A stretch of DNA of 64,000 nucleotides from Thermodesulfobacteriota bacterium (GTDB taxonomy: Bacteria; Desulfobacterota_D; UBA1144; Nemesobacterales; CSP1-2): the NCBI GenBank assembly GCA_035559815.1, contig DATMAT010000019.1:1-64000 (forward strand), given 5' to 3'. The position numbers were made by a program, and so were the translations under genes. The notes under the pieces are model-generated. The model did no database searches and was not told the DNA's origin. It saw only the letters and a list, made by a program, of their open reading frames with translations. This document shows positions 18,198-56,934 of the stretch, in pieces (within the stretch, counting starts at the first letter, position 1; each line of letters opens with the position of its first letter).

Positions 18198-18974
18198 TTA
18201 TTCAAAGGAGACCAATTCTGCATCCTCGTCGATCGCCAGACCTATTCCCCGCACATATACTTTTAAGTCTCTTGCACCGCCTTCGAGGGGATTGCAGTCC
18301 TCGGTCGTTAGCGTATCGTCAAAGTCTCCAGCCGGAACTTCTATAGGCCCGCCTAATGCTAGAACTTCCGCTTGGTCTTCGGCTACGCCGGGTGCGCCCT
18401 CCTGCATGAACACGTCACCAACTTGCGGGTCAGCAGGCATAACAATGCCGGGCACGTTTCCATTTTCTCCAGCGCGCCAAGCGCCTTCGTGGCTGGGCTC
18501 TTCTCCGTTACAAAGAAACTCATCCCCGACCTCCTCAAGCCCGTCGTTGCATTCATCTACGTCCTCGCCGAAGTAGCAGACAGTGCCGTCCGGTGCCTGG
18601 GCGAAAAAGTTCCGTGAAACCTCGACTAGCACACCGTCCTCAAATTCGACCTCCTCCACAACACGCGTTTCTACACCGGCAACCTCTTCCGTCTCGTCCA
18701 AAACATTTATTTCTATCCTGATCTCGGTACCTTCGTCGTCCACTCCCTCAAGCACACTCTGACTGCCCACCACCGCCGGGAAGAAGCCGTTGTCAATAAT
18801 TAACGAGAACGGGCCGCCTGTCTCCGGGTCGCAAACCTCGATACTCAGGGTGGTCGCTGGGCATACTCCGCCACCGCCGTCACCGTCACACCCACCCCCC
18901 CAGAGGACAAGGAAAAGAGAAAAACATAGAGCAAATACATAGGTTAATCGTCTCATGGTTATTGTTTTTTTCAT
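18198..18974 (-). CDS. Acidic secreted lipoprotein, unknown function
   Basis: The 258 residues start with MKKTITMRRL, a hydrophobic core and LWGGGC, a lipobox-like cleavage site followed by Gly/Asp-rich CDGDGGGG. The mature protein is very acidic and beta-rich; notable segments are DGTVCYFGEDVDECNDG, HEGAWRAGENGN and PADPQVGDVFMQE. I have seen this arrangement in uncharacterised bacterial lipoproteins but know no function. AAGGAGGGGAAA precedes the ATG. The upstream region shares an element and an extended -10 with the gene at 19270-20124, suggesting joint control. Confidence 0.75.
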   Translation of the reverse strand: MKKTITMRRLTYVFALCFSLFLVLWGGGCDGDGGGGVCPATTLSIEVCDPETGGPFSLIIDNGFFPAVVGSQSVLEGVDDEGTEIRIEINVLDETEEVAGVETRVVEEVEFEDGVLVEVSRNFFAQAPDGTVCYFGEDVDECNDGLEEVGDEFLCNGEEPSHEGAWRAGENGNVPGIVMPADPQVGDVFMQEGAPGVAEDQAEVLALGGPIEVPAGDFDDTLTTEDCNPLEGGARDLKVYVRGIGLAIDEDAELVSFE

Positions 18975-19006
18975 TTTCCCCTCCTTATGGCTCTATTTTT
19001 TTACTG

Positions 19007-19012
19007 ATATTA
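19007..19012 (-). promoter_or_regulatory. Extended -10 of the 18198-18974 gene
   Basis: Leftward TGT-TAATAT, 32 bases before the start codon and exactly 29 bases after the TGTAATGTT of the shared element. No good -35 hexamer sits at the normal distance, as expected for an activator-dependent promoter. Confidence 0.55.
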
Positions 19013-19040
19013 ACACAGGAGGATTACGGGAACCTTTCCT

Positions 19041-19065
19041 CAACATTACATCTTGGAAAGGTTTA
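19041..19065 (-). promoter_or_regulatory. Shared upstream element, copy 1 (candidate operator)
   Basis: A 25-base stretch, read leftward as TAAACCTTTCC then AAGATGTAATGTTG, is identical to 20188-20212. It stands at a matching position before the second secreted-protein gene. An OmpR-type two-component system is encoded next door (20565-22605), which makes its regulator the first candidate to bind. Confidence 0.6.
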
Positions 19066-19269
19066 CAGTAACCCTTAACCACGAAGACACGTAGGCACGA
19101 AGAAAACAGAAAAGCATTAAAATTTTCTATTTTCTCTGTCCTCCATTACTAGATAATATCGGTTAAATCGGGAAGACGAACCTTGAGGACAAAGCCCGTC
19201 CGGTTGTTAGAGGCTTCATCGAACGGGCCAGGCATTGCCCTTTACCAATCTAGTCGGCTTGCTTAATGA

Positions 19270-20124
19270 TCACTCCATCACGAAACAGGTCTCGACGGCT
19301 GTCTGATTTCCGCTTTCCTCTCTTACCAATACCTCTAGCTTGAGATCATCTCCCGAAGCAAAAAGTCCCTCAGGAACGACCACCATTGTCACATCAGGTG
19401 GGAGGTCGAGGGTAAACTTAAGGAGATTTGGCTCCTCCCGCTCGACGACGACCTGGTAGCCGACAATATTAATCCTTGGTGAAGATTTCGGCGTGCCTAT
19501 CTCCGGGTGTGATAGTGTGACCGGATCCCACTCTATAACGATGGGCTCGCCAACTGATGGGAGTGGGTCGGCATCGCAGTCGTCGGCCGCCGCTTCTCCG
19601 GAAATCAAGATATTGTCAGGAGGGGCAGGAATGATGTGCTTGAGCCGATCCGTGCTCTCCAGCTCCTCTCCCTCGAGAGTGATGCCGGAGATTTCGTATT
19701 TTCCCTCCGGGAACCGCTGGAAGAATTTTTCGGGCGGGAGCTCGTCGAAAGGTGGCTCGGCACTCTCGAAGAAAAGTTCGGTAAGGCCTTGCCGTCCCAG
19801 ACGGCCTTTGTTTTCAACCGAGAGAATCTGGCGTTCGTTCGGGTCTTCGATCTGGAGCATCCTCCAGGGTTCTCCATCGATGAGAGCGTGGATTCCCAAA
19901 TCTCCATCTGTGTCGTTGAGCTCGAGGAAGATGTTCGACACGTCAAAAGGGATCTCGTCACCCTGCGCCTTGGCGGTGCTGCCAGGCAGCCCGAGCAAGA
20001 TGAATGTTGCAACTATCGCTAAAAAACATGCTGCAATGTATTCGATCCACGATGCATGATTTATCCTGTATCTTGCATCCTGAATCCTATAAACAAGCGC
20101 TTCTAATCCTTTTATGCTTTTCAT
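19270..20124 (-). CDS. Secreted protein of unknown function
   Basis: The 284 residues have a long N-region, a hydrophobic core (about 33-48, FLAIVATFILLGLPG) and STAKAQ as a likely signal-peptidase site. The mature part is acidic and beta-rich (NIFLELNDTDGDLGIHALID, KYEISGITLEGEE, VTMVVVPEGLF), suggesting a periplasmic or surface beta-sandwich. The residues IQDARYRINHASW ahead of the signal core are encoded by a dispersed repeat, also seen at the end of hemH. AAGGAGGTGCAAC gives a strong ribosome binding site. No family recognised. Confidence 0.7.
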   Translation of the reverse strand: MKSIKGLEALVYRIQDARYRINHASWIEYIAACFLAIVATFILLGLPGSTAKAQGDEIPFDVSNIFLELNDTDGDLGIHALIDGEPWRMLQIEDPNERQILSVENKGRLGRQGLTELFFESAEPPFDELPPEKFFQRFPEGKYEISGITLEGEELESTDRLKHIIPAPPDNILISGEAAADDCDADPLPSVGEPIVIEWDPVTLSHPEIGTPKSSPRINIVGYQVVVEREEPNLLKFTLDLPPDVTMVVVPEGLFASGDDLKLEVLVREESGNQTAVETCFVME

Positions 20125-20153
20125 GTTGCACCTCCTTAACTGGTTTTATGCAG

Positions 20154-20159
20154 ATAATA
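20154..20159 (-). promoter_or_regulatory. Extended -10 of the 19270-20124 gene
   Basis: Leftward TGA-TATTAT, 29 bases before the start codon and exactly 29 bases after TGTAATGTT of the shared element, the same spacing as at 19007-19012. Confidence 0.55.
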
Positions 20160-20187
20160 TCAGGAGATAGTTGCCGGAAGATTTCCC

Positions 20188-20212
20188 CAACATTACATCT
20201 TGGAAAGGTTTA
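20188..20212 (-). promoter_or_regulatory. Shared upstream element, copy 2 (candidate operator)
   Basis: Identical over 25 bases to 19041-19065, and followed in both copies by G-R-G-G-A-A-A. It lies 63 bases before its gene, against 66 for copy 1. Confidence 0.6.
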
Positions 20213-20349: not shown

Positions 20350-20440
20350 ACCCGTTCGTCCTGAGCCTGGTGGTCGAAGGACGCAGTTATGTCGGAGTGA
20401 ACGCTTATCATCCTTCGATGAACTCAGGATCAGCGGGTAC
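20350..20440. repeat. CCTTCGA/CTCAGG-type palindromic repeat
   Basis: TCCTGAGCCTGGTGGTCGAAGG pairs with CCTTCGATGAACTCAGGA over most of its length, forming a large imperfect hairpin in the gap between the secreted-protein gene and the sensor kinase. Related copies lie near 10157, 11225 and 51643. Confidence 0.6.
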
Positions 20441-20564: not shown

Positions 20565-21950
20565 TTAGGTGGGGAAATAAACCGTGAAAACAGAGCCAGT
20601 GCCCGGCTGGCTGTAAACCTCGACATATCCTCTATGTGCCCCGACGATGGCTTTGACCAAGCTCAAGCCCAGCCCGAGTCCCTTTTGTGACCGGCTTTTA
20701 TCGCCCCGGTACAGGCGATCCCAGATTTTATCAAGCTCTTCCGGTGAAATTCCGACTCCGGTGTCTTTAACGGTGATAGCAACCTCCTGCTCTCTCCGAC
20801 AGGCTTCAACTTCCACTCTCCCGCCAGCCGGGGTGTACTTGATTGCGTTATCGACCAGATTTGCCAGTACCTGCCGTATCCAGTTGCGGTCGGCCTTTAA
20901 ATAGAGCTCACCGGGCAAGCCAATATGCACGGAAACGCCTTTTTCTTCGGCGACATAATTATAGAGTTCGACGACGTCCTCGATAAGAGGGGCAACGTTT
21001 ATCTCTTCCGGATTAAGCTTCATGGTTCCGGTCTCCGCTTCCGATACATCCATTAGCGTATTTAACATCACGAGAATACGTTCTGACTCCTCCACGCAGT
21101 CGCTTAAAGCCTCGCGGAGGACGTCCGGGTTCTGCTCAGTCTGTAATGCTATTTCAGCGGTGCCCCTAAGTCTGGTCATCGGCGTTCGCAGGTCGTGGGC
21201 GACGTTATCCAGAACGTTTCGCATTCCATTCATAAGGCCTTCGATTTTTTCGAGCATAGTATTAAACAGCGAGATCAACTCTCCGTGCAATTTATCGGTT
21301 TGATCGGGGGGAACTCTCACGTCTATCTTGCCGCTTGAAACGATAGAATTAAGCGTATTGATGAGTTGTTTAATGGGATTGAGGGCACGGTCAGCAATGA
21401 ATAAGCCGCCTAAATAAGCAAAAAGGACTATGGGGATGATAGCGATCATATATACTTTGCGAATACTGCTTAAAAGATCTTCCCGCTCGACTATGTCTTG
21501 ACCCATTTGCAAGATCGTGCCGTCGGGCATGCTCATGGAGGTTATTTCGAATTCGTCCTGGTGACCGGCGCCCTTTAGATATTTCCACTCGTTCTTTTGG
21601 AGAAGGGTGCCCTCTTCCAGTTGCTCGGCATTCAAGGCGGGCCAGTCTTTCGGAATCCATGAGACAAGCGCCTTGTTTTGCTCTCCGACTAGGCGAACGA
21701 GAAAGGTCTCGTCCTCATCTTCGTACACATCCTCTCTTAAAGCTTCCAATCCATCTTTCCGGTAAATCTCTGCAAACTCATCTAAATCCTCCAAGATTTC
21801 CTTTCGGCTCTGCTCATAGATGAAAGAAGAAATGACCGTATAAGCGTAGATGTTTATTAACAGTGAGCAAAGAATGAAGAAAAAGGTGTACCAAGTTATG
21901 ATTCTAAAGCTGCTTGATTTAAGCAAGAGTTTAGGATTCTTTAAGAACAT
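20565..21950 (-). CDS. Two-component sensor histidine kinase
   Basis: The 461-residue protein has two membrane segments (about 18-40 and 167-187) around a 125-residue periplasmic sensor. A HAMP linker (about 185-240) follows, then a HisKA domain with the phospho-acceptor H252 in AHDLRTPMTRLRG and an ATPase domain with NLVDNAIKYTP (N box), DTGVGIS (G1) and KGLGLGLSLV. The periplasmic segment is acidic (DVYEDEDETF), which could suit metal or peptide sensing, but the signal is unknown. It overlaps the regulator gene by 20 bases and is co-transcribed after it. Confidence 0.92.
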   Translation of the reverse strand: MFLKNPKLLLKSSSFRIITWYTFFFILCSLLINIYAYTVISSFIYEQSRKEILEDLDEFAEIYRKDGLEALREDVYEDEDETFLVRLVGEQNKALVSWIPKDWPALNAEQLEEGTLLQKNEWKYLKGAGHQDEFEITSMSMPDGTILQMGQDIVEREDLLSSIRKVYMIAIIPIVLFAYLGGLFIADRALNPIKQLINTLNSIVSSGKIDVRVPPDQTDKLHGELISLFNTMLEKIEGLMNGMRNVLDNVAHDLRTPMTRLRGTAEIALQTEQNPDVLREALSDCVEESERILVMLNTLMDVSEAETGTMKLNPEEINVAPLIEDVVELYNYVAEEKGVSVHIGLPGELYLKADRNWIRQVLANLVDNAIKYTPAGGRVEVEACRREQEVAITVKDTGVGISPEELDKIWDRLYRGDKSRSQKGLGLGLSLVKAIVGAHRGYVEVYSQPGTGSVFTVYFPT

Positions 21951-22605
21951 AGCCCACCCCCCTGATAGTGTGAATCAACTTTCTCTCAAAATCCCGGTCA
22001 ATCTTGTCCCGTAACCTGCAAACCAATACGTCCACTACATTAGTTTGCGGGTCAAAGTTGTAATCATAGACATGCTCCATAATAAGGGTTTTGGAAACCA
22101 CCCTTCCGGCATTACGCATAAGGTATTCGAGCAGGGCAAATTCACGGGGTTGGAGAATAATCTTTCTATCCCCTCTGGTAACCTCCCGTTTAATAATGTC
22201 CATAGAGATATCTCCAAATGTCAGGCGTGTGGACTCGGCAGTTCCGCTGGCTCTCCTTATAAGCGCCTGCACGCGCGCCAAAAGCTCGGAAAAGGCAAAG
22301 GGCTTCGTAAGGTAATCGTCTCCCCCGGTCTGAAGCCCTTTAACCCGGTCGTCAACCGAACGCTTGGCGCTCAGTATGATCACCGGGGTGTTTATCTTTT
22401 TTCGTCGGAGTTCCTCTATCAGGGTTAAACCATCTAGTTTAGGCAGCATTATGTCTATGATCGCCGCATCGTAGGACTCGTGTAATGCCAGATGAAGGCC
22501 GTCCTCACCGTCTGACGCATGGTCAACGGCAAACCCCGCCTGTTTGAATCCTTTAACTATGAAAGAAGCGATCTTTTTATCGTCTTCTACGACTAGCACG
22601 CGCAT
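21931..22605 (-). CDS. OmpR-family response regulator (CusR/CopR-like)
   Basis: The 224 residues comprise a receiver domain with acidic pocket ED8-D9, phospho-acceptor D51 (IIDIMLPKLDG) and K103-type lysine in LTKPFAFSEL. The winged helix has LQPREFALLEYLMRNAGRVV and IHTIRGVGYVL. The wording is close to heavy-metal regulators, but no efflux genes are nearby. The nearest plausible targets are the two secreted-protein genes with the shared element. It precedes and overlaps its kinase gene. Confidence 0.92.
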   Translation of the reverse strand: MRVLVVEDDKKIASFIVKGFKQAGFAVDHASDGEDGLHLALHESYDAAIIDIMLPKLDGLTLIEELRRKKINTPVIILSAKRSVDDRVKGLQTGGDDYLTKPFAFSELLARVQALIRRASGTAESTRLTFGDISMDIIKREVTRGDRKIILQPREFALLEYLMRNAGRVVSKTLIMEHVYDYNFDPQTNVVDVLVCRLRDKIDRDFERKLIHTIRGVGYVLKES

Positions 22606-23055
22606 ATCTTATGACACCTTTCACGTGGATGTACGTCATTAATACGGTATGTCCGTTCACTTTGTGCCATGTATAGTGGTCCCCCGAAAATGGGGATAGG
22701 TTTGTCGGACTATCGAATTGTTGAAGGGCGATGAGGGTCCTTCGACTGGGCCCGGGACGAACGGGTATAAAGACCAACCCCATACGCTCAATGGATAACC
22801 TCCCCAATTTTTCATTTAACAGTATTCTCTGACCATTTTATAATAACTTAAATTTTCTTCATAACATACATATCGATTACTAAAAAGTATCCGCTGTCTA
22901 TTACACGGTCTCCGGCTGAAGAAAGTAGAGTGATGACAAGCTATTCACATAGCACCTACTTCGACTCAATTATTTAACCGTTTATTGTCCTTAATACTTG
23001 CGGACATACTGATAAAGACTGTAAACACTGGGGTTGACATCGGACCAGCGACTTT
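22606..23055. other. Gap between the two-component system and the restriction-modification genes
   Basis: No gene is supported. A CCTTCGACTGGGCCCGGGAC repeat fragment lies at about 22738. The rest is A/T-rich without recognised signals. Confidence 0.4.
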
Positions 23056-23780
23056 TTAGATGCTTTTCTTTTTTAATGCCCTTTCAATAATTTCTTTTAC
23101 AAACTCCGGAATTGGCTTACTATAGGCAACTGCATCCTCCTTCAGCCTTTCATATTGTTCAATTTCTGATCCTTGCCAAATTAAATCAAGGCGCCGAACT
23201 TGGCGCATAGCAACATGTGTATAATTTTCAGGATATGCCCAGTAACAGGATAAACATATTTCTTTTTTCTTAAGAGTTTTCCAGTTTTCGCAATGTTCAC
23301 ATGACCATGACTTGCGCGATTAGCAGAGCCACAGAGCAGCATAAAGTCATCCGGATTTAAACCGGATATATCACCGGCAACTTCGTATGGGACTCTGTGA
23401 TCAATTTGAAGTTCACGGACATCCACTTCTTCAAGATAGATAAAACACCTGCGCCCATATTTTTCTATAAGCTTCTCTTTAATCTGTTTCGACAGACCGG
23501 TTCGGCCAGCAATACGTCTGAAACGAATCTTCTTGGGATCCGCAAACCTGTAGGCAGCAATCTTGCGCCCATCAGAACCAACTACAGTAAAGCGCTCAAT
23601 AGGAATGCCGTGCTCTTTAACATCGCGTGCTGCACGAGGAGGGTGGTTGTAACCATAAATATTCTTTAATTCTTCGGTAGAGATGTGGCCGTGCTTAAGA
23701 ATGTGATCAATCACCGTCCGCGGGCGCTTTGCGGTGACTGACCTACACAACTCAAGGAACTCTTTTGGATACTTTACCAT
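23056..23780 (-). pseudogene. HNH restriction endonuclease, frameshifted
   Basis: The N-terminal half (MVKYPKEFLELCRSVTAKRP onward) reads well to LQIDHRVPYEVAGD and NPDDFMLLCGSANRA. This is an HNH core with the D-H pair and the downstream Asn. Just after it, at about 23311-23315, one base is missing. Restoring it gives KSWSCEHCENWKTLKKKEIC and LSCYWAYPENYTHVAMRQVR, the zinc-binding CxxC pairs and tail, up to a stop at 23056-23058. In the given frame the protein ends at 23181 with unrelated residues. It overlaps the methylase gene by 29 bases as its partner. Loss would leave an orphan methylase. Confidence 0.75.
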
Positions 23781-24696
23781 ACTTTGTTTTGGTCTCGAGA
23801 AGGGTCATCTGCTCGACATTATTTCTCTTGTGAAGATATGGTGTTGCACCAACCTCCTCAGTAAGAGGAGCTGAAAGATAAAGAGATTCAACCGTAATAA
23901 CTTCCCTGCCTAATAATGTCGCTTGGGATGATCGCCCAGCTTCCAATTCGATTTGAGTTAAGTTCAAGTGTTTAGGTAAAGTCTGGCCAAAAGTCTTAGA
24001 CCCAGTGCGCCCATCATAGCTAACAGCATAGCGGATTCCGCGTTGATTTAGTTCCTTTAAGGCTGCAACAAATTCTTCGAAAGAAACGCCAGTGAAGTAA
24101 CGCGAGTCTCTATCTCCGCAGACTCCCTGATAAGGAGGATCCATATAAACGACATCATCTTCATTTACGTTGGCAAGCACATCTCGATAATCATGGGATG
24201 AGATTACTGCTTTCCCCCGAAGTAACATAGAAACTCCCAAGATATTTTCACGCATAGTTTCTGGTTTTGTGCCGAGTCGTCGTTTGTCTGGACTCTGGTT
24301 GAATAGCCCCTCAGAATTGTACCTAATGGCTCCTTTCACACAGCGAGCTAGCAAATAAAGGAATAGCTTTGGATCGTGAGATCTGTTAAAGTCTTCACGA
24401 ATACGGTAATAATGCTCAAGAGTGTCTGGTCCCTGAGACATCCAAATTTTTTTGTATGAATCAGCAAGTTCTTCCGGATGGTTGATGATTAAACTCAACA
24501 GCTCAGCTAGAGGCTTGTTAAAATCATTTATCCAGTAGGTCTTGGCTCTACCGCGTGCGGCGCAAGCAATTGATATAGCAGCAGAGCCAGCGAACGGTTC
24601 AACCAAACGATCCATTTTAACAGGCAAATAGCGAAGTATAGTAAGAGCCAGACCTCGCTTGCTGCCTTGATATTGAATTGGATGGGGTACTTTCAT
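23752..24696 (-). CDS. DNA adenine N6-methyltransferase (Dam-type, type II)
   Basis: The 314-residue enzyme has QYQGSKRGLALTIL near the start, the AdoMet motif E34-PFAGSAAI and the catalytic D186-PPY189. This is the order of alpha-group Dam-like adenine methylases (D12 class). It overlaps the HNH endonuclease gene, so the pair is a type II restriction-modification system with methylase first. The recognition sequence cannot be read from the protein. The upstream gap holds no controller gene. Confidence 0.88.
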   Translation of the reverse strand: MKVPHPIQYQGSKRGLALTILRYLPVKMDRLVEPFAGSAAISIACAARGRAKTYWINDFNKPLAELLSLIINHPEELADSYKKIWMSQGPDTLEHYYRIREDFNRSHDPKLFLYLLARCVKGAIRYNSEGLFNQSPDKRRLGTKPETMRENILGVSMLLRGKAVISSHDYRDVLANVNEDDVVYMDPPYQGVCGDRDSRYFTGVSFEEFVAALKELNQRGIRYAVSYDGRTGSKTFGQTLPKHLNLTQIELEAGRSSQATLLGREVITVESLYLSAPLTEEVGATPYLHKRNNVEQMTLLETKTKYGKVSKRVP

Positions 24697-24880: not shown

Positions 24881-26188
24881 TCAAAACTCAACCTGTACCA
24901 CCAACTTTGCCAAAAAGCTGTTTTCGGCCTCGGACGGAAAAGCCTTGCCCGGGATGAAATAACCCAGCACGAAGGCCAGTTCAAAAATACTTTTATTTCC
25001 TTCATTCACAAATCCGATAATGAGGTCTATCTCGCTCCCGAGACTTTTGCTCCGGCCGTCCGGCTCGGCGTCGATCCCCACGTCCCGGAGGCTATCGGTG
25101 GCTACGTTCTGGAGATAATAATGATAGACCAGGTCGATAGAGCACTTCTCTTCTATCGGGTTTATGCCTGCTCCTACGGTGAAGATGGAGAGGTTGCTAA
25201 GCTCCGGGTCGAATAGCTCTCCGTAATAATTGAAATCCGCCACCCCGTTAAAGTCTCCCTCGTTTGCCTGAAATCCTGTCTGTCTGAAGTTCTTGTCTTC
25301 ACCATCATCCGGGTGGGCGTCACCAGTGCCAAAGGCGTAGCCTAAGGTTATAGACGGCTCCAGGGGCAAGTCGAACGCATAAGTGGAGCCGACATCAAAG
25401 CCCAGCCCCCTGATTTTATCGGGCCCGTCTTTTCCCACCACGTACGCCAGCTCAAGCCAGTATCCTAGGTTTTCAGTTATGTCTCCGTCTGAATGAATAC
25501 CAAAGAAGATTGGACTGTTATCCTCTTCGGAGCGGTCATCGAATATAAGGAGGTAGGCGGCAACGTATGTTTCTTCAGAAATCGCATAGGTCCCGTAGGC
25601 AAAGTAGTTATTGACCCGGTCCGATACGTCGTCATTCAACAAATCCCTGTCCACAAGCCCTCCCCGGCTTACCGAAAGATCAAGCAAAAACCGGGAGAGT
25701 TCAAAGAACGCCCTGGCCCCGTCCAACTCCGCATCGTATAGCCACTGCCTTTCGTCGTCGAACCGCTGACGGCCGACCTGAAAAGAAAGATGGTCATCTA
25801 AAAGATGCTTGAATAAAAGATAAGCCAACTCGAATTCGAGGCTAGTCTTGTCATCTACCTTATCCCCGTCCTCAAACATAAATTCTCCGGATAACTTTGC
25901 AGTAAGAAATGCTTGAAAGTACCGGTTCGGGTCGAAGGAGAACGCCACGGATAGCTCCGGAGCTATTGTAGAAAAGTCCTCGTCTCTTTCCCCGTCCAGG
26001 TCAATGTTCCTTTCGAGCTCGGATTCAACCTCGATCTGTGCCCCGAAAGTAAGATAAGGGGCAATCTTAATCCTGGTCTCGGGAGGAGCGTCTGGGTCAA
26101 AGACTTCTTGGCCATTCGATTCCGTGATACAAAAGATTAATGCAAGGAAAATAGGAGCTAAAGAGAATGCCGTTCTATTTATCTTCAT
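24881..26188 (-). CDS. Alginate-export (AlgE)-like outer-membrane porin
   Basis: The 435 residues have a signal peptide (MKINRTAFSLAPIFLALIFC..SNGQ) and then alternating beta strands ending in F (LVVQVEF), as in outer-membrane barrels. DDHLSFQVGRQRFDDERQW with YDAELDGARA is typical of the AlgE family. The family includes alginate exporters but also many porins of unknown substrate. It diverges from the Rrf2 gene across a 363-base gap and may belong to the same physiology as the porin at 33555. Confidence 0.75.
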   Translation of the reverse strand: MKINRTAFSLAPIFLALIFCITESNGQEVFDPDAPPETRIKIAPYLTFGAQIEVESELERNIDLDGERDEDFSTIAPELSVAFSFDPNRYFQAFLTAKLSGEFMFEDGDKVDDKTSLEFELAYLLFKHLLDDHLSFQVGRQRFDDERQWLYDAELDGARAFFELSRFLLDLSVSRGGLVDRDLLNDDVSDRVNNYFAYGTYAISEETYVAAYLLIFDDRSEEDNSPIFFGIHSDGDITENLGYWLELAYVVGKDGPDKIRGLGFDVGSTYAFDLPLEPSITLGYAFGTGDAHPDDGEDKNFRQTGFQANEGDFNGVADFNYYGELFDPELSNLSIFTVGAGINPIEEKCSIDLVYHYYLQNVATDSLRDVGIDAEPDGRSKSLGSEIDLIIGFVNEGNKSIFELAFVLGYFIPGKAFPSEAENSFLAKLVVQVEF

Positions 26189-54948: not shown

Positions 54949-56934
54949 TTATCTTAACTTACTCGAATACTCGTGCACGGCGTCTACTAATGCCAGCACA
55001 TTATCTACGGGCGTATTTGGCAAGATGCCGTGGCCCAGGTTGAATATATGCCCCGGACGCCCTTCTGCCTTTTCTAGGATATTTGTGGCTAGGCGCTTGA
55101 TCACTGAGGGTTGAGCAAAAAGGGCAACCGGGTCGAGATTGCCCTGTACCGCCACGTCGTATCCTAATCTTGCCCAAGCCTCCTTGAGGTCTACTCGCCA
55201 GTCAAGCCCGATCACAAATCCGCTTCTACCTCCGCTCAGTACAGGTCGAGTCGAACTACCGGCCTCCTTCATCATGTCGAGCAAGGCTGAGGTGCCGGTT
55301 CCAAAGTGTATGACCGGTACCCCCGGCTCTATATTTTGCATGAGCCGATGCATGTGCGGAAGGACGAATTCCCTGTAGTCATCGGGTGAAAGACAGCCAA
55401 CCCAGCTATCAAAAATCTGCACCGCATCCGCACCGGAGGATATTTGGCCGTTGACATAAGCGACTGTTGCCGAAGTCAGTTGCTCCATAAGAGCGTGCCA
55501 CATGCCTGAATCGGAGTACATTAGTTTTTTAGTGTTTTCGTAGTTTCTGGAGCCTCCGCCCTCGATTACATAGGAGGCGACGGTGAAGGGTGCTCCGGCA
55601 AAACCGATGAGGGCGAGGTTAGGGTCGAGCGCCCGGCGGGTGATTTTCACCGCATCATAAACAAATTGCATGGCATCAGGGTTAAACTCGGCCAAACTGT
55701 CAACGGCTTTACCCGAACGCACCGGCTTTTTAATCCTGGGACCGTCACCCTTTGAAAATTCGAGCTCTATCCCAAGTGGTTCGAGAATTAGAAGAATATC
55801 GGCAAATATAATGGCGGCGTCTACTGCCAGCCTTTCTGCCGCACTAAGCGTCACTTCGGCTGCCAGTTCCGGGGTCTTACACAGTTCTAAAAACGGCACC
55901 TTGGAGCGGAGTTCGCGATATTCGCGGAGAAATCGGCCGGCTTGACGCATCAGCCAGATCGGGGTGTAATTCGTGGATTCGAGACGGCAGGCTTTCATGA
56001 ATACGGAATCGCGGGTGATTGCGGCCGTATCTTGACCTGGAGCTGCCCAAATCATGTCCACCCGACGCCAGCGATTGGTGTCTACCCCATTTTCGTGGGC
56101 TATTCTTTTCTTGTGCACTAGCGCCTCTCCGCGACGGGCCATCTCTCTCACCAGATTACCCATTTTCGGGCTATTAGGCTCGTAATCAGCGGAGAGCCCC
56201 ACCTCGCGAAGAGCCTGTGTAGTGGTCGGGCCTATTGAACCAATAGCCACCCGCATAAATCCATTACGAAGCGTTTCTTCTAATCCTTCCATATTTGCAA
56301 CCTGTATAACGTGGTGAACCTGCTGGGAGCTGGTAAAGAGTGAAATGTCAATCTGCCCTTCAACAATGGAGCATATGGCATTACGGAGCGGAGTCAGGTC
56401 TTCGGGTAGAGCCCAGCGGTAAACCGGAACAGGGGTAACCACCGCCCCGCGTTCTCTTAACCCGTCTAGTAATTCTCTATTCGAGATGCCGTATTCTTGT
56501 ACCGCAATGCGCTTTCCCTCTATTGAAAGCTCGCTGTCGATGATGGCTAGAATGTCCCGCCAGGTGTTTGGCTCGGGAACGAGCACCTGGGGCTTGAGTC
56601 CCATCTCTCGAAGCGCGGCCACCGGTTTGGGCCCACGTGCTACTATAGTTGTGTTACCTAGTGCTTCGATGAATCTTTCATGCGAGTATTTCGTGGAGAT
56701 GACGTCTGCCAGGGTGCGAGTACCCACTCCGGTAAGAAGAATGACTATATCCAGTTTCTCCTCAAATAAGTCCTCTGCAAATGCCAGCGCTTCGGTCGAT
56801 TCCGAAAGCGGGACTTCGCGCATGGACGGCGCCACCAATGGGATTCCGCCATGATAGGATATTAACTTCTCAATCTCCTTGGCCCGGCGGCTTTCAAACG
56901 CCACAACCCGGAGTCCGTTAAAGTCGTTGGCCAT
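54949..56934 (-). CDS. Fused uroporphyrinogen-III synthase and uroporphyrinogen decarboxylase
   Basis: The 661-residue product joins two activities. Residues about 5-265 are HemD: RVVAFESRRAKEIEKLI, LTGVGTRTL, VARGPKPVAALREMGL, SLFTSSQQVHHVI and AIGSIGPTTTQALRE. Residues about 320-661 are HemE: TPIWLMRQAGRFLREYREL, ADILLILEPLGIELEF, GFAGAPFTVASYVIEGG and HFGTGTSALL. The linker (about 270-315) is polar. The two act one after another on tetrapyrroles, making uroporphyrinogen III and then coproporphyrinogen III. First gene of the haem operon. A gene fusion of this order is unusual. Confidence 0.92.
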   Translation of the reverse strand: MANDFNGLRVVAFESRRAKEIEKLISYHGGIPLVAPSMREVPLSESTEALAFAEDLFEEKLDIVILLTGVGTRTLADVISTKYSHERFIEALGNTTIVARGPKPVAALREMGLKPQVLVPEPNTWRDILAIIDSELSIEGKRIAVQEYGISNRELLDGLRERGAVVTPVPVYRWALPEDLTPLRNAICSIVEGQIDISLFTSSQQVHHVIQVANMEGLEETLRNGFMRVAIGSIGPTTTQALREVGLSADYEPNSPKMGNLVREMARRGEALVHKKRIAHENGVDTNRWRRVDMIWAAPGQDTAAITRDSVFMKACRLESTNYTPIWLMRQAGRFLREYRELRSKVPFLELCKTPELAAEVTLSAAERLAVDAAIIFADILLILEPLGIELEFSKGDGPRIKKPVRSGKAVDSLAEFNPDAMQFVYDAVKITRRALDPNLALIGFAGAPFTVASYVIEGGGSRNYENTKKLMYSDSGMWHALMEQLTSATVAYVNGQISSGADAVQIFDSWVGCLSPDDYREFVLPHMHRLMQNIEPGVPVIHFGTGTSALLDMMKEAGSSTRPVLSGGRSGFVIGLDWRVDLKEAWARLGYDVAVQGNLDPVALFAQPSVIKRLATNILEKAEGRPGHIFNLGHGILPNTPVDNVLALVDAVHEYSSKLR

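Follow-up and report, generated by a model that had tools for sequence, protein, structure and literature searches.

Operators of the kind discussed here are already known from regulators of the CusR/CopR/AgrR/HprR class. In Escherichia coli, CusR and HprR share one box (PMC8249747), which reads CATTACAAAATTGTAATG (PMC9302797) and which the excerpts of the literature consulted describe as a plain palindrome. The promoters of E. coli cusC and hiuH and of the plasmid genes silC and silE, as read in loci L064, L065 and L119, all have a direct half-site at precisely +11, and in each a TANNNT follows at precisely +38. AgrR of Cupriavidus metallidurans binds an inverted pair of ATTACA half-sites together with direct half-sites that are in phase with it; mutation of the promoter-proximal half-site strongly reduces activation, and the AgrR promoters have a good -10 box and a poor -35 box (PMC7380067). 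In Pseudomonas, CusR, CopR and CzcR share one palindrome (PMC11195947).

We analysed a 64-kb stretch of DNA (hereafter, the window) in which the genes of two predicted exported proteins, P1 and P2, lie beside a two-component system, each preceded by a copy of the same promoter module. The relevant features, in plus-strand coordinates, are as follows.

18198..18974, minus strand: P1, a predicted lipoprotein of 258 aa and of an unnamed family (open reading frame with AGGAGG before the ATG).
19007..19059, minus strand: promoter module of the lipoprotein gene P1 (exact grammar match; 54 bits with model R1), with half-sites TTTC 19056-19059, GTAA 19046-19049, GAAA 19035-19038 and GTAA 19024-19027, and -10 box TAATAT 19007-19012.
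19041..19065, minus strand: 25-base element, copy at P1 (sequence identity with the copy at P2).
19270..20124, minus strand: P2, a predicted Sec-exported protein of 284 aa with two beta-sandwich (FnIII-like) domains (open reading frame with AGGAGG before the ATG).
20154..20206, minus strand: promoter module of the FnIII-like gene P2 (exact grammar match; 58 bits with model R1), with half-sites TTTC 20203-20206, GTAA 20193-20196, GAAA 20182-20185 and GCAA 20171-20174, and -10 box TATTAT 20154-20159.
20188..20212, minus strand: 25-base element, copy at P2 (sequence identity with the copy at P1).
20565..21950, minus strand: sensor histidine kinase with HAMP, HisKA and HATPase domains (domain search; the nearest curated family is that of heavy-metal sensor kinases, below its cut-off).
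21931..22605, minus strand: OmpR-type response regulator of the CusR/HprR/CopR branch and proposed binder of both operators (domains, family scores and alignment).
24881..26188, minus strand: outer-membrane barrel (porin) of the alginate-export type (Pfam PF13372, 4.8e-36; synteny).

The 25-base element, which reads TAAACCTTTCCAAGATGTAATGTTG on the strand of the genes, is identical at its two positions and occurs nowhere else in the window, as the first-pass annotation of this DNA had reported for the pair. The next-best match in the window has 8 mismatches, about 2e-6 identical pairs of 25-mers would be expected by chance in 64 kb, and allowing up to three mismatches revealed no further copy in the 3.97-Mb genome to which the window belongs (G000). 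The element forms the promoter-distal part of a 53-base module with the grammar TTNC-N6-GNAA-N7-GNAA-N7-GNAA-N11-TANNNT, that is, an inverted pair of half-sites (TTNC being the inverted partner of the first GNAA), two direct-repeat half-sites and a -10 box without a -35 box, the three GNAA blocks being spaced 11 bp apart. Both the form of the half-sites and their 11-bp pitch are those of OmpR-family operators. The spacing from the element to TAATAT or TATTAT is exactly 29 bases in both copies, and the annotation's remark that a good -35 box is missing was borne out, since, with spacers of 15-19 bases allowed, no hexamer at either promoter agrees with a -35 box at more than 2 of 6 bases. Its statement that the intervening bases diverge needs qualification: the wider repeat around the two elements extends over 69 nt with 77% identity, and what the copies have in common between the element and the -10 box is mainly the two further half-sites (GAAA at 19035-19038/20182-20185 and GYAA at 19024-19027/20171-20174).

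The full grammar has exactly two matches in the 3.97-Mb genome, both of them in the window, while the reversed control grammar has none in the same genome and 200 Markov resamplings of the window gave none either; model R1 found no convincing site in this genome beyond the two. The annotation's own refuting condition, random copies of the element elsewhere without -10 boxes, was put to the test and did not refute its reading. Directly upstream of the P1 operator, at 19075-19105, lies a ACCACGAAGACACGTAGGCACGAAG stretch, which resembles a repeat found in many environmental genomes.

Orthologues of P2 were sought in 60 relatives and found in 12 other genomes; a related element lies upstream of most of them, and a P1 orthologue with its own element is often the next gene. 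In the alignment of 25 sites (column statistics were taken over 27), the invariant columns, TT.C, GTAA, G.AA, G.AA and TA...T, correspond to the half-sites and the -10 box alone. The distance to the -10 box is constant in 24 of the 25 sites. Of the extended -10 box proposed in the annotation, the TANNNT part is thus invariant and the TG part is present in about 15 of the 25. Many relatives have the palindrome TTAC-N6-GTAA, the distal half being TTTC in the window. Altogether, 14 genomes keep the module, all of them from this genome's own order (Candidatus Dadabacteria). One genus carries an extra operator between P2 and P1 (L026:8285, L030:15938 and L031:4141, minus strand), which in two of the three loci precedes an open frame of 44 residues whose beginning is hydrophobic.

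This pattern bears on two other explanations of the shared element. A recent local duplication or gene-conversion tract without any regulatory role would fit the 25 identical bases, the 69-nt repeat and the resemblance of the P1 site to the P2 site, which is closer in this genome than in the order's other families. Yet orthologous sites stand before P1 or P2 in 13 other genomes, invariance is limited to the half-site and -10 positions, and P1 and P2 are not homologous; gene conversion could account for the exact 25-base identity but not for the conserved grammar. Duplication as the full explanation is refuted by conservation across families, and we regard the non-regulatory reading as very improbable. 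The idea that P1 and P2 are paralogues which inherited their promoters was also rejected, as the proteins show no similarity to each other. The second explanation, extremely improbable in our judgement, is that the element is a transcribed RNA structure such as a riboswitch or an attenuator. The perfect 9-bp inverted repeat AACCTTTCC/GGAAAGGTT in the P1 copy speaks for it, but this repeat is broken in the P2 copy and in most relatives, RNAalifold predicts zero pairs on the 25-site alignment, and an invariant -10 box follows the element at a fixed distance.

The regulator has a receiver domain (PF00072) and an OmpR-type winged helix (PF00486), and is 47% identical to E. coli CusR and 45% to HprR. 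Its best curated family is TIGR01387 (CusR/CopR/SilR), at 271.3 bits just below the cut-off of 279.2, and the next-ranked models are those of E. coli CusR and HprR, with both of which it has the recognition segment FDxxTNxxDVxxxRLRxK in common. The kinase reaches 229.1 bits against the CusS-type family TIGR01386 and falls short of its cut-off of 292.55. It has no counterpart of the HGHGHMEH stretch of CusS, and across ten orthologues its periplasmic region shows no conserved set of His, Met or Cys residues, so nothing points to copper or silver as the signal. The regulator has a second copy in G029:C8 (26382-28428, 62% identity, with a kinase) and in G006:C121 (18195-18857, 52%).

To relate the sites to this two-component system across genomes, we used model R1, a sequence-only model built from Dadabacteria sites alone, the first motif seeds having been chosen beside P2 genes. 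At E < 1e-6 it was positive in 14 of 61 genomes. Motif and system (scored by the kinase orthologue) were both present in 13 genomes and both absent from 47; one genome had the motif only, and none had the system only. The corresponding Fisher probabilities, which ignore phylogeny, are 2e-12 over the 61 genomes and 3e-10 within the order. The regulator itself was found in 11 of the 13 kinase-bearing genomes, the kinase being cut off by a contig end in the other two. R1 also found new sites outside its training set, in G020, G002:C43, G002:C84 and G017:C47. G002 has the system, P1 and P2 on three separate contigs, each carrying the motif, a distribution that favours action in trans over passive synteny. 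Two genomes, G007 and G001, keep P1 (G007 also P2) without the system and are without the motif as well, and the P1 relatives outside Dadabacteria (Myxococcota, one MAG labelled Actinomycetes and one labelled Rhodospirillales) gave no motif match. The exception is G021, which has motif sites and no detected regulator or kinase at a completeness of 93%; the absence may be an assembly effect.

The sites of G021 would also fit a reading in which the operators are real and another regulator is their main binder, possibly with cross-talk. Sharing of one site is on record for CusR and HprR in E. coli (PMC8249747) and for CusR, CopR and CzcR in Pseudomonas (PMC11195947). The closest paralogue of the regulator in its own genome is only 35% identical to it, however, and the sites track the presence of this particular two-component system across genomes, so we regard a different main binder as unlikely.

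A comparison with the described operators places the module in the CusR class. R1, trained on Dadabacteria, scores 24.4 bits (E = 4e-6) in the E. coli hiuH-hprR intergenic region, and its match there is the published box; conversely, the site of L029 and one site of L020 contain 17 of the 18 bases of the E. coli CusR/HprR box. Like cusC, hiuH, silC and silE, the module has an inverted pair (TTAC-N6-GTAA or TGAC-N6-GTCA) followed 11 bp downstream by a direct half-site. Both the inverted TTAC-N6-GTAA arrangement (TTAC in many relatives, TTTC in the window) and an in-phase direct half-site before a -10 box that lacks a good -35 are found here. There are differences of detail. Counted from the inner half-site, the -10 box lies at +37 in Dadabacteria and at +38 in these four promoters; the fourth half-site, GYAA at +22, is clear in Dadabacteria and degenerate in the enterobacterial promoters; and the distal half, TTAC or TGAC in boxes of the E. 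coli type, is loosened to TTTC in the window. At its own promoter AgrR has its core centred near -43.5. The inverted pair of the module would lie upstream of that position by about 9 bp, near -52, and is followed by two direct half-sites before the -10 box; the targets also differ from those of AgrR. The Pseudomonas CopR/CusR/CzcR operators have the GTAAT half-site and the inverted arrangement in common with the module; in the part of the source available, the tail of direct half-sites is not seen in them, and their targets are copper and zinc genes (PMC11195947).

Grammar, conservation, fixed spacing, uniqueness, co-occurrence, regulator class and half-site identity with the E. coli box together lead us to consider it highly likely, on sequence grounds, that each element belongs to a promoter of the CusR/HprR/AgrR class which depends on an activator and is driven by the adjacent two-component system. 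The proposal in the first-pass annotation of a small regulon of the neighbouring OmpR-type regulator is likewise supported, at the level of sequence, by the two-site count in the genome, the CusR/HprR-like regulator, the box match and the co-occurrence. As a mechanism, the kinase (20565-21950) would sense an envelope signal and phosphorylate the regulator (21931-22605), dimers of which would probably bind the inverted pair of GTAA-type half-sites and also fill the two direct half-sites in 11-bp steps towards the promoter. If the start of transcription lies 7 bases after the -10 box, half-sites would stand at about -49, -38 and -27; the bound regulator could then replace the -35 box and recruit RNA polymerase to the -10 box, and the transcription of P1 and P2 would presumably be switched on. 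The nature of the signal and the function of the products are conjectural.

Half-sites at those positions, with the same assumed start, could also mean that the regulator acts as a repressor covering the -35 region, and CzcR and CopR are able to repress some of their targets. We hold this to be quite unlikely: without a usable -35 box the promoter would be weak unaided, and promoters of the same geometry (cusC and hiuH) belong to activated genes. Several points count against the reading of activator-dependent CusR-class promoters, namely the lack of an operator upstream of the porin and regulator genes in the window's own genome, the scores of regulator and kinase below the heavy-metal cut-offs, the motif without a system in G021, the neglect of phylogeny in the Fisher probabilities, the choice of the first seeds beside P2 genes, and the offset of about 9 bp from the AgrR core.

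Autoregulation is typical of CusR-class systems. In the genome of the window it was rejected, as neither the porin nor the regulator is preceded by an operator there, although relatives carry one. In L020, L022 and L026, the same four half-sites occur in mirror orientation before a porin-regulator-kinase operon (L020:5000-5215, L022:13235-13410 and L026:12590-12745), about 30 bp upstream of a conserved TAGATT-N17-TAGAAT; these sequences suggest autoregulation from a position more distant than at P1 and P2. The usual order in relatives is porin, regulator, kinase, P2 and P1, with the porin directly upstream of the regulator. In the window, a gene for a Dam-family adenine methyltransferase and an overlapping winged-helix/HNH-like gene lie between porin and regulator (23181-24696); they are possibly a restriction-modification pair and look like an insertion that split the porin-regulator operon. 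Inverted copies (89%) of a short repeat with CCCGTTCGTCC beside a CCTTCGA-type sequence, at 20350-20367 and 22749-22766, occupy the intergenic regions that flank the two-component system on both sides.

Neither P1 nor P2 has a significant Pfam or NCBIfam family, and sequence searches of their profiles against solved structures gave no match. P1 is conserved across the order at 62-72% identity, and its family occurs mainly in Candidatus Dadabacteria and in a few other MAGs, Myxococcota-type ones included; P2 orthologues are 33-60% identical (both from alignments). The AlphaFold model of P2 has a mean pLDDT of 78, and its Foldseek matches (TM-scores of 0.2-0.4) point to nothing more specific than an FnIII/Ig-like fold, so no function can be read from the likeness to matrix proteins, RbmA among them. 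The P1 model is of low quality (pLDDT 56), with matches unusable for assigning a function. The two products may be located at the surface, as the annotation's term for them implies. They are not the metal-efflux or metal-binding targets of a heavy-metal regulon, and the Dadabacteria targets are not oxidant-repair genes either, unlike those of E. coli CusR and HprR.

What is new is therefore the regulon, whose members are a lipoprotein and an exported FnIII-like protein and which includes no metal-efflux genes, and the well-kept fourth half-site. The annotation had called the regulon undescribed, which stands insofar as no report of it was found in the open-licence literature; the operator type itself is known from heavy-metal and oxidant systems. 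Titles and abstracts of that literature describe no two-component system of this kind in Dadabacteria. We tentatively raise the possibility, which we think less probable than its negation, of an order-wide envelope-response system of Candidatus Dadabacteria, in which a CusR-class system that once served defence against metals or oxidants now answers a non-metal signal, controls a porin and two exported proteins of new families, and retains the four-half-site operator as an ancient general feature of the class. The module offers a testable regulon for a lineage known here from metagenome-assembled genomes alone, connects a sensor and an outer-membrane barrel with two protein families that lack a name, and extends the geometry of the cus/sil/hiuH promoters (inverted pair, 11-bp direct half-sites and fixed -10 box) far beyond Proteobacteria. 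Since its sites come so near to the E. coli box, it should be possible to study the regulator with a reporter in E. coli and to dispense with cultures of the organism itself. Elsewhere in the window, at 54949-56934, a single frame of 661 residues, judged by eye, appears to join a uroporphyrinogen-III synthase-like portion and uroporphyrinogen decarboxylase in one protein.
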